Shown piece after piece: positions 1-10,601 of a stretch of 10,601 nucleotides of DNA (position 1 is the stretch's first letter; each line of letters opens with the position of its first letter). The stretch is from Sphingomonas bacterium (GTDB lineage Bacteria > Pseudomonadota > Alphaproteobacteria > Sphingomonadales > Sphingomonadaceae): contig JAJAYY010000036.1 in NCBI GenBank assembly GCA_026785965.1, positions 1-10,601 of the forward strand. Reading direction: 5' to 3'. The notes below the pieces were generated by a model, which saw nothing but the letters and a program-made list of their open reading frames with translations, was not told where the DNA came from and did not search any database. Both the position numbers and the translations under genes were made by a program.

Positions 1-1339
1 CCTCGAACTTGATCTCGTGGAGCTTTAACAAGGCGATCACGTCCGGCTTGGTCGCGGGAACCCACCAGGCTGCGGGTAGGGTTGCGACGAAGTCGGGGGC
101 TTGGATAAACACCGGCACTTTGCGAGACACCGGGCGGCCGAGCCAGCGAACCTCATCGCCGCCGGAAGCGGCCGACCGATAGCTCTCCTGCTCGATTCCC
201 TTGAACGCTTCGATGGTGAACAGAGGCTTGGCGACCGGCTTCCACGTCAGCACCGTCGTCGCCGGGCGCGAGATGCGATCGGTCGCGATCGCCGTGGCCA
301 GTCCCTCCCCCTTTGTGCCGAGCAACCGCAGCGACTCCTCGATCAGCACATAGGTGCCGAGCACGCGCTGGCGATAGGGCTTGAGCGAGTGGGCCTCGAC
401 CAGCACCGTCGGTTGCCGCGCGAGCTCGCCGTAACCGGTCGAAAAGCGCGGCGTATCGGGGCTAAGCAACGCGCCCTTCTCGAGCCGACGCGGATCGACG
501 GCCTCGATGTAAAGTCCGGGGATGTGACCGGCCCGGGTGAGCGCAGTGGTTACTGCGGGGCGATAATGCGCATCGAGCCAAAGGCCGATCGCCGGTGAAT
601 GGCTCGGCGACCCCGCCCAGCCGGGGAAGGTGAAGCCGATGTCATACTGGTAATCGATCCCGTCCGAGACGTGGAGATCGAGGATCAGCGCCGGCTCCAG
701 CCGGTTGAGATAGGTCCGCATGGCGCGCATCTCGGGCGTGTCGGCCTTGAGATAGTCGCGGTTGAGGTTGAGATTTTGGGCGGTCGTGCGCCAGCCCTGG
801 TTGGCGGGACCGCGCTGGTTGGGGCGATTGGTGGGCGAGGTCCGCTCGTGCCCGTCGGCGTTGAAGATCGGCACGAATATCAGGTCGGCGTGGTCAAGCA
901 GCCGGTCCTTGCCGCGCAGCGCGATGTCGCGCAGCAACATCAGCCCGGCGTCCTTGCCGTCGATCTCGCCTGAATGAATTCCGGCCTGAACGAACAAGAG
1001 CGGCTTGGTCGCGGTGCCCGGTTTCGCAGCACGCACCGCATAGAGTTCGCGGCCCTGTGCGGTGCGCCCGAAAGTTTGGATGCTCAGCAACGGCGAGGCG
1101 GCGACCAACCGGTCGATCCACGCGCGCGTTTCGGCGTACGACGGCGTAGTCTCGAAGCGATTCGCCTCGGCCGGCGTAATCCACGGGTCGGACGGCGCCA
1201 CGACCAGTTTCTCGCTCGCCCCATGCCATGGCAGGACCGGCGGAAGCGGCGCGGACTGATCGGCGGTCGAGCGCGGCTGGGCTGCTGCCGGGGTGGCAAG
1301 GAAAGCGAGCGCCGAGACGGCCATGAGGAAGAGTTGCAT
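1..1339 (-). CDS. Secreted M14-family zinc carboxypeptidase, C-terminus cut off by window edge
   Basis: A metallopeptidase of the M14 (carboxypeptidase A-like) superfamily, expected to trim peptides outside the cytoplasm. The visible part is 446 residues and stays open to the left edge. Residues 1-20 form a hydrophobic signal peptide ending in an Ala-rich cleavage site (AAA before QP), although its n-region lacks Lys or Arg. The M14 zinc ligands are visible: H122 and E125 in HSGEIDGKD, and H223 in LDLHVSD. E315 in VLVEAHS is the likely catalytic glutamate. Substrate-pocket-like sequence NLNLNRDY lies between them. Spacing agrees with carboxypeptidase A (H69, E72, H196, E270). The ATG at 1339 is the earliest possible start because an in-frame TAG sits 12 nt upstream. 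There is no Shine-Dalgarno sequence, and a promoter candidate abuts the ATG. The exact substrate and M14 subfamily are not determined. The gene is divergent from the PEP-mutase-like gene. Confidence 0.88.
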   Translation of the reverse strand, partial: MQLFLMAVSALAFLATPAAAQPRSTADQSAPLPPVLPWHGASEKLVVAPSDPWITPAEANRFETTPSYAETRAWIDRLVAASPLLSIQTFGRTAQGRELYAVRAAKPGTATKPLLFVQAGIHSGEIDGKDAGLMLLRDIALRGKDRLLDHADLIFVPIFNADGHERTSPTNRPNQRGPANQGWRTTAQNLNLNRDYLKADTPEMRAMRTYLNRLEPALILDLHVSDGIDYQYDIGFTFPGWAGSPSHSPAIGLWLDAHYRPAVTTALTRAGHIPGLYIEAVDPRRLEKGALLSPDTPRFSTGYGELARQPTVLVEAHSLKPYRQRVLGTYVLIEESLRLLGTKGEGLATAIATDRISRPATTVLTWKPVAKPLFTIEAFKGIEQESYRSAASGGDEVRWLGRPVSRKVPVFIQAPDFVATLPAAWWVPATKPDVIALLKLHEIKFE

Positions 1340-3405: not shown

Positions 3406-4343
3406 ACCGCCTCCTGGGGCGCGTGACCCATCTCGCGCGCCGCGGCAGCCCCGGCAATGGCGATGAACGCGTCGTGCAGCCCTGGCCGCTCGATGCTCAA
3501 GGTCTCGATCCCGGCGTGCCCGTCGAGCAAAGCCTTGAGCAAGGGTTCGGGTCCGCCGTCGGGAAGCTCGAAGCGCCACTCGCCGCCGATCCGCTCGGCC
3601 GATGCCGGTATTGCCTGACGCCACGGCCCGTCGGCGGCGCGGGTGCGCAAATGGACGATCGGCCGCAATTGGCCGCGCGCCTCGTCGACCGCGCCTTCGA
3701 ACGCGACCTTGCCCTCGGCGATGATCGCGACGCGTTCGCACAAGCGTTCGGCGTGGGCGATGACGTGGGTTGAAAAGATCACGGTGGTCCCCGCTGCAGC
3801 CTCGTCGCGGATCAATTGCTCAAGCTTTTCCTGGTTGATCGCATCGAGCCCCGAAAACGGCTCATCGAGTACGATCAGTCGGGGCTTGTGGACAATCGTG
3901 CCGAGCAATTGGACCGTCTGCGCCATGCCCTTGGACAGCGTCCGGATCGGCCGTTTGGCCCAATCGCCAAACCCGCGCCCCTCAAGCAATTCGACCGCGC
4001 GGCGGCGCCCGGTGGTGATCGGCAATCCGCGCAGCGCGCCCATGAAGGCGATCGCCTCGGCCGCGGGCATCGACGGATAAAGCCCGCGCTCCTCGGGCAG
4101 ATAACCGACCTCGCGCGCTGCTTCCAATGGCTTGTCGCGCCCCAGCAAGGTGCGCGTTCCCGAAGTCGGATCGATGATCCCGAGCAGCATGCGCAGGCAC
4201 GTGGTCTTGCCCGCGCCATTGGGGCCAAGGATGCCGCTGATGCTCCCCGCCGGGACCGACAGGCTGACCCCGTCGACCGCGCGATTGCCGTCGAAATCCT
4301 TGACCAGGTCGTGCGCCGCGGCGGCGATGTGTCTTTCCCCCAT
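3402..4343 (-). CDS. ABC transporter ATP-binding protein (NatA-like)
   Basis: The cytoplasmic ATPase that powers the exporter with the downstream permease. It is 313 residues from the ATG at 4343. It carries Walker A GPNGAGKTT at 40-48, YLPEERGLY at 81-89 in the Q-loop region (the form typical of NatA-type ATPases, without the usual Gln), signature LSKGMAQ at 136-142, Walker B LIVLDEP with E161, D-loop SGLD at 164-167 and switch STH with H193. About 100 residues after the nucleotide-binding domain match the extra C-terminal domain common in this group (DUF4162-like). A TTG start at 4379 would add 12 residues but would run into queG. No Shine-Dalgarno sequence precedes 4343, and a promoter candidate lies 8 nt upstream. 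The 4-nt overlap with the permease defines a two-gene operon. NatA-like is a family statement and substrate specificity is unknown. Confidence 0.92.
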   Translation of the reverse strand: MGERHIAAAAHDLVKDFDGNRAVDGVSLSVPAGSISGILGPNGAGKTTCLRMLLGIIDPTSGTRTLLGRDKPLEAAREVGYLPEERGLYPSMPAAEAIAFMGALRGLPITTGRRRAVELLEGRGFGDWAKRPIRTLSKGMAQTVQLLGTIVHKPRLIVLDEPFSGLDAINQEKLEQLIRDEAAAGTTVIFSTHVIAHAERLCERVAIIAEGKVAFEGAVDEARGQLRPIVHLRTRAADGPWRQAIPASAERIGGEWRFELPDGGPEPLLKALLDGHAGIETLSIERPGLHDAFIAIAGAAAAREMGHAPQEAV

Positions 4344-9609: not shown

Positions 9610-10601
9610 ATGGTCACCCCAACCCGCACCGAAACCGACAGCTTCGGCCCGATCGAAGTCCCCGGCGACAGCTATTGGGGGGCGCAGACCGAGCGCTCGA
9701 TCGTCAACTTCCCGTTCGGCGAGCGCGAACGCATGCCGGCCGAGATCGTCCACGCTTTGGGGTTCGTCAAACAGGCGGCGGCGCGGGTCAATGCCCGGCT
9801 CGGCGGGCTCGATGCCGAAATCGCCGAGGCGATCCAGGCCGCGGCCGGCGAAGTCGCGCGCGGCGACCTCGACAATCAATTTCCGCTCGTGATCTGGCAG
9901 ACCGGATCGGGCACCCAGTCGAATATGAACGCCAACGAAGTCATCGCCGGGCGCGCCAATGAGCAGCTCACGGGAACCAAGGGCGGCAAACAACCGGTCC
10001 ACCCCAACGATCACGTCAACCTCGGCCAGTCGTCGAACGACAGCTTTCCGACTGCAATGCACATCGCTGCGGGGATCGCGGTGGCCAAGAAATTGCTGCC
10101 CGCGCTGAAGGCGGTCCACGCCCGCCTCGCCGACCAGGCGAAGCGTTGGGATCATATCGTCAAGATCGGCCGCACCCACCTCCAGGACGCGACCCCATTG
10201 ACGCTCGGACAGGAATTCTCCGGCTACGCCGCTCAGATCGAGGACAATATCGCTCGCGTCGAAGGGGTGCAACCGCGAGTCATGCGGCTCGCTCAGGGCG
10301 GTACCGCGGTCGGCACCGGATTGAACGCGCCCAAGGAGTTCGCCGCGGCCTTTGCCTAGGAAGTCGCCAATCTTACCCAATTGCCGTTCACCTCGGCGCC
10401 CAACAAATTTGCCGAGCTCGCCGCGCACGATACGCTGGTCGAGCTATCGGGCACGCTCAACACGATCGCCGTGTCGCTGACCAAGATCGCCAACGACATC
10501 CGCTTGCTCGGCTCGGGGCCGCGTTGCGGGCTGGGCGAATTGAAGCTGCCCGAAAATGAGCCCGGCAGCTCGATCATGCCGGGCAAGGTCAACCCGACCC
10601 A
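9610..10601 (+). pseudogene. fumC: Class II fumarate hydratase, interrupted by an in-frame TAG; 3' end beyond window
   Basis: Class II fumarase, the homotetrameric iron-independent enzyme that interconverts fumarate and L-malate in the TCA cycle. AAGGA at 9600-9604 lies 5 nt before the ATG. The reading frame shows [10 protein letters not shown] from residue 98, [14 protein letters not shown] (130-143) and [10 protein letters not shown] with H190. Codon 250 is TAG (10357-10359), after FAAAFA. The same frame then continues without further stops: [23 protein letters not shown] and [12 protein letters not shown] from 319, the fumarase signature with the presumed catalytic serine S320. The 249-residue product would lack this loop and much of the central helical bundle and should be inactive. 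No frameshift is needed; one base change (GAG, AAG or CAG to TAG) explains it. It could be a recent pseudogene, a sequencing error or a suppressed amber codon. If the base is wrong, this is an ordinary fumC. Confidence 0.92.
10357..10359 (+). other. In-frame amber codon inside fumC
   Basis: TAG at codon 250 of fumC, within CCTAGG at 10355-10360. The flanking protein sequence aligns without a gap to what is expected of class II fumarases (FA-x-FA-[E/K/Q]-E-x-A-x-LT), so the TAG replaces one residue, probably Glu, Lys or Gln. No convincing restart codon with a ribosome site follows closely. Confidence 0.9.

Follow-up and report, generated by a model that had tools for sequence, protein, structure and literature searches.

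Class II fumarate hydratases (FumC) are described by the NCBIfam profile TIGR00979 and carry the motifs TGSGT and GRTH as well as a GSS loop, which we take to be the active-site signatures of the class. Here, we analyzed a fumC gene that runs into the end of a stretch of 10,601 nucleotides (the window), which is the entire contig C36 of the draft genome G000. As in class II FumC, homology extends across the whole profile. The protein shares 80 to 89% identity with the nine top relative sequences and has sequence relatives among solved structures (best, 4hgv). Unlike usual FumC genes, it contains one in-frame TAG, at codon 250, and is split over two contigs of the draft. Base errors occur in draft metagenome-type assemblies, and G000 (1,795,498 bases, 270 contigs, completeness 79.68%, contamination 3.38%) resembles error-bearing assemblies in having isolated in-frame stops in a fragmented draft, several of them near contig ends.

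The fumC reading frame is interrupted at codon 250

The fumC frame starts with ATG at position 9610 and comprises 249 sense codons, followed by TAG at positions 10357 to 10359, 244 bases from the end of C36. The original prediction had described a frame open to codon 249, a TAG, and fumarase sequence onward in the same frame. This split frame was confirmed by translation and by TIGR00979; omitted from that description was that the window ends where the contig ends and that the remainder of the gene lies on another contig, C92. The gene is laid out as follows.

9610..10356, plus strand: fumC codons 1 to 249 (N-terminal part), TIGR00979 positions 2-242
10357..10359, plus strand: in-frame TAG, fumC codon 250; relatives have a sense codon there
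10360..10601, plus strand: fumC continuation in frame, with the GSS loop, up to the contig end, TIGR00979 positions 246-325
10573..10601, plus strand: final 29 bases of C36, identical to the first 29 of C92; overlap with the contig carrying the fumC remainder
C92:1-432, outside the window: fumC remainder, TIGR00979 positions 317-458

The match of the N-terminal part comprises residues 6 to 247, and the three pieces together cover profile positions 2 to 458, with a gap of a few positions around the TAG; each split piece stays below the curated cut-off of 664.75 bits. Joining C36 and C92 via the exact 29-base overlap yields an in-frame gene of 464 codons with one internal stop, the TAG, which interrupts its reading frame. 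In the translation, TGSGT and GRTH lie upstream of the TAG and the GSS loop lies downstream of it. Since homology is conserved on both sides of the TAG, chance is excluded as the source of the split frame.

fumC in the genus and search for another fumarase

The original prediction had named fumC of sister strains as a check, and the gene proved to be full length, stop-free, and above the cut-off in 60 of the 71 genus genomes searched. Among the matches listed, fumC with a stop occurs in G000 only; matches beyond this list are weaker. In two genomes (G005 and G058), the gene is found in pieces over two contigs, and G039 has a short fumC fragment. Six genomes (G003, G012, G016, G049, G051, and G080) have no fumC piece among the matches listed, with weak matches of other lyase types only; each consists of at least 100 contigs, two are rated 97% complete, and the missing genes are perhaps due to assembly gaps.

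In the single-contig genome G052, fumC consists of two overlapping pieces in different frames (G052:C1:137105-138477). This arrangement resembles a frameshift near residue 258.

No class I fumarase (PF05681) was detected in G000, a draft of about 80% completeness, or in any of the 61 genus genomes in this search, which included G000. Since none of these genomes gave a class I match, fumC looks like the sole fumarase of the genus, with a fifth of G000 missing. A second fumarase, which had been put forward earlier as one way to live with the TAG, was found neither in G000 nor, as a class I enzyme, in the genus. One candidate, the only other full Lyase_1 gene found in G000 (on contig C28), turned out to be PurB.

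Constraint on the sequence after the TAG

The frame downstream of the TAG was compared with seven relatives. For codons 251 to 330, the median dN/dS between G000 and the relatives was 0.11 (0.105 between relatives), and for codons 331 to 463 it was 0.116 (0.136 between relatives), so that this comparison gave no sign of decay or relaxed selection in fumC after the TAG. The earlier view that the undecayed frame points to a recent lesion is supported by these values, which are as in relatives. At the TAG site, the eleven nearest rows, in which L004 and L092 look like one genome and L165 and L087 represent a single gene, have Lys, Ala, or Arg; many other residues are found farther off.

Further in-frame stops in G000

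A sample of G000 comprising 63 stretches and 431,562 bases (24% of the draft) was scanned with a codon-usage model, which returned 63 in-frame stops within coding runs. In this sample and in those of the controls, the decision as to which stops interrupt a gene was made by eye, and not blind. Six of the 63 stops, in five genes, were judged to do so, and most of the others mark the end of a gene followed by another gene in the same frame. Besides fumC, the interrupted genes are as follows.

L207 (G000:C46) 3411-3413, minus strand: TAA in pdhB (pyruvate dehydrogenase E1 beta), NF008854
L212 (G000:C51) 12470-12472, minus strand: TAG in a gene for a TPP-requiring enzyme, NF006129
L150 (G000:C6) 931-933, plus strand: TAG in a gene for a sigma-54 regulator, with domains on both sides
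L151 (G000:C7) 4013-4318: two TAG in a VOC-like gene

The pdhB pieces match NF008854 at positions 107-314 and 316-464. For the TPP-requiring enzyme, the NF006129 matches are at 1-102 and 104-594, and in either case one residue is missing between the pieces. In the sigma-54 regulator, the sigma-54 interaction and lid domains precede the TAG and a Fis-type helix-turn-helix follows it. The pieces of the VOC-like gene matched no family in Pfam, its name being a reading of the sequence. Full-length, stop-free pdhB is present in 64 genus genomes, and among the 66 genomes above the cut-off the pdhB stop occurs only in G000, with G044 having a partial match. Just 1 of 10 other genomes gave long matches to the TPP-requiring enzyme, and 2 of 10 matched the VOC-like gene. 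Stops were also seen in 11 weaker matches listed in the pdhB search, which belong to other dehydrogenase subunits; these are gene boundaries just before the subunit start and were discarded. After its stop, pdhB shows a median dN/dS of 0.257 (0.207 between relatives), a higher level that mostly reflects the region itself. The start of another contig (G000:C270:1-947) carries a second sigma-54 regulator copy, which shares 76% identity with that on C6 and is possibly bin contamination.

Samples of three congeners served as controls. The codon-usage model returned 8 stops in 150,000 bases of G004, 32 in 205,909 bases of G005, and 33 in 400,000 bases of G007, none of which was judged by eye to interrupt a gene. 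Thus, by-eye calls gave 5 interrupted genes per 431,562 bases in G000 versus 0 per 755,909 bases in the congeners. With random placement across the coding bases read, the probability that all five fall in G000 by chance is about 0.009, and without the VOC-like gene (4 versus 0 interrupted genes) it is 0.022; both values rest on by-eye calls and small numbers. Four of the five interrupted genes have their stops less than 1 kb from a contig end (P = 0.028, again with by-eye calls and small numbers); for comparison, 29% of all bases read are no more than 1 kb from the end of a stretch. Without the VOC-like gene, this becomes three of four (P = 0.078), a weak trend.

An automatic filter that discards early ATG/GTG cases retained 11 stops in G000 and 1, 2, and 5 in G004, G005, and G007, respectively, including two of the six stops called by eye in G000 (those in fumC and the TPP-requiring enzyme); on this filter alone, an excess of stops in G000 is not clearly shown. 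A tblastn comparison of the samples yielded 31 sites in G000, 4 in G004, 18 in G005, and 16 in G007, nearly all of which look like wrong-frame noise, with the fumC stop as the one clear case seen. A codon-score scan with strict margins detected no stops and missed the fumC TAG as well.

Explanations for the TAG in fumC

The TAG in fumC is probably a wrong consensus base in a fragmentary draft, and the gene would then be an ordinary class II fumarase from which the real organism makes a normal full-length FumC. What is seen directly is the TAG itself, the intact remainder of the gene, the rarity of such a stop in the genus, and the other stops in G000; the wrong base and its cause are inferred. 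Among the three options of the original prediction (wrong base, second fumarase, and amber suppression), the wrong base is the best supported because G000 has other in-frame stops, one of them in the core gene pdhB. The error would probably stem from thin or mixed reads near the break of C36. If this is so, lone in-frame stops in G000 call for caution before metabolic gaps are inferred from them.

In the most likely ranking, a genuine recent nonsense mutation comes second to a base error, and we regard it as possible but rather unlikely. The sequenced cells would then have a fumC cut short by the stop, whether as a minor variant of the strain or as a loss that has become fixed, and would either lack fumarase or use one that is absent from the incomplete draft. 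In a consensus, such a mutation and a base error have the same appearance. The TAG is present in the draft sequence, the roughly 20% of G000 that is missing could hide a second enzyme, and the six genomes of at least 100 contigs each without a fumC piece among the matches listed are compatible with it, whereas the 60 of 71 genus genomes with stop-free fumC and the 0 of 61 with a class I fumarase argue against it. So do the dN/dS values of fumC, which show no relaxation, and the interruption of pdhB, as the loss of both genes in one lineage without other decay would be unlikely. If the stop were real, G000 would represent a close relative of ordinary, fumC-intact bacteria that lives without the apparently sole fumarase of its genus; alternatively, stop codons in core genes would be read through.

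Read-through of the TAG, via an amber-suppressor tRNA or local recoding, would give full-length FumC. Like amber suppression and reassignment systems, G000 has an in-frame TAG that conserved sequence follows; the frame is constrained downstream, many residues are tolerated at codon 250, and TAG accounts for five of the six stops judged to interrupt genes in G000. Unlike these systems, it has mixed stops, mixed residues at the stop sites, TAG as a terminator, and no suppressor tRNA that could be found: CUA and UUA anticodons are both absent from the 33 tRNAs found in G000, an incomplete set from a draft of about 80% completeness, which also speaks against the amber suppression considered earlier. 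One of the stops is TAA, and from codon usage about 51 to 53% of single-base stop mutations are expected to be TAG, which five of six is near. No single meaning fits the residues at the stop sites, as they differ among relatives: apart from those in fumC, they are Tyr in nine of nine relatives at the pdhB TAA; Trp in two of two at the first site of the VOC-like gene and Lys or Met at the other; Ala, Ser, Val, or Arg in the sigma-54 regulator; and Ala in the single relative with the TPP-requiring enzyme. Moreover, TAG is the terminal stop of four other genes in the window (PEP-mutase-like, ABC permease, APC permease, and HIT), an observation of the original prediction that was confirmed and counts against TAG reassignment. 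We therefore consider read-through of this kind very improbable. Even less probable is low-efficiency reading of stops, TAG above all, with no dedicated suppressor tRNA, as the source of FumC, PdhB, and other proteins; related species might then tolerate stops too, of which the TAG that G014 has in its VOC-like gene might be a hint. None of the findings suggests a novel reading of the genetic code, and read-through has no specific support.

Least probable of all is that the bin contains C36 from one organism and C92 from another, which would make the joined fumC a chimera and its interrupted copy that of a contaminant. The bin contamination of 3.38%, the second sigma-54 regulator copy on C270, and the position of the 29-base overlap within the conserved GSS loop motif are compatible with such a mixture. 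Against it, the join of C36 and C92 is in frame and gives a normal fumC length, the gene that follows fumC on C92 matches its counterparts in G004 and G014, though with identities of only 49% and 42%, and the TAG lies within C36 and is hence left unexplained by the join.

The VOC-like gene in G014

The VOC-like gene of G014 (L253 1507-1875), a relative with a genome of nine contigs rated 100% complete, contains one TAG at a position unlike that of either TAG in G000. Conserved sequence flanks the TAGs in both genomes, and the VOC-like gene may be a true pseudogene of the group.
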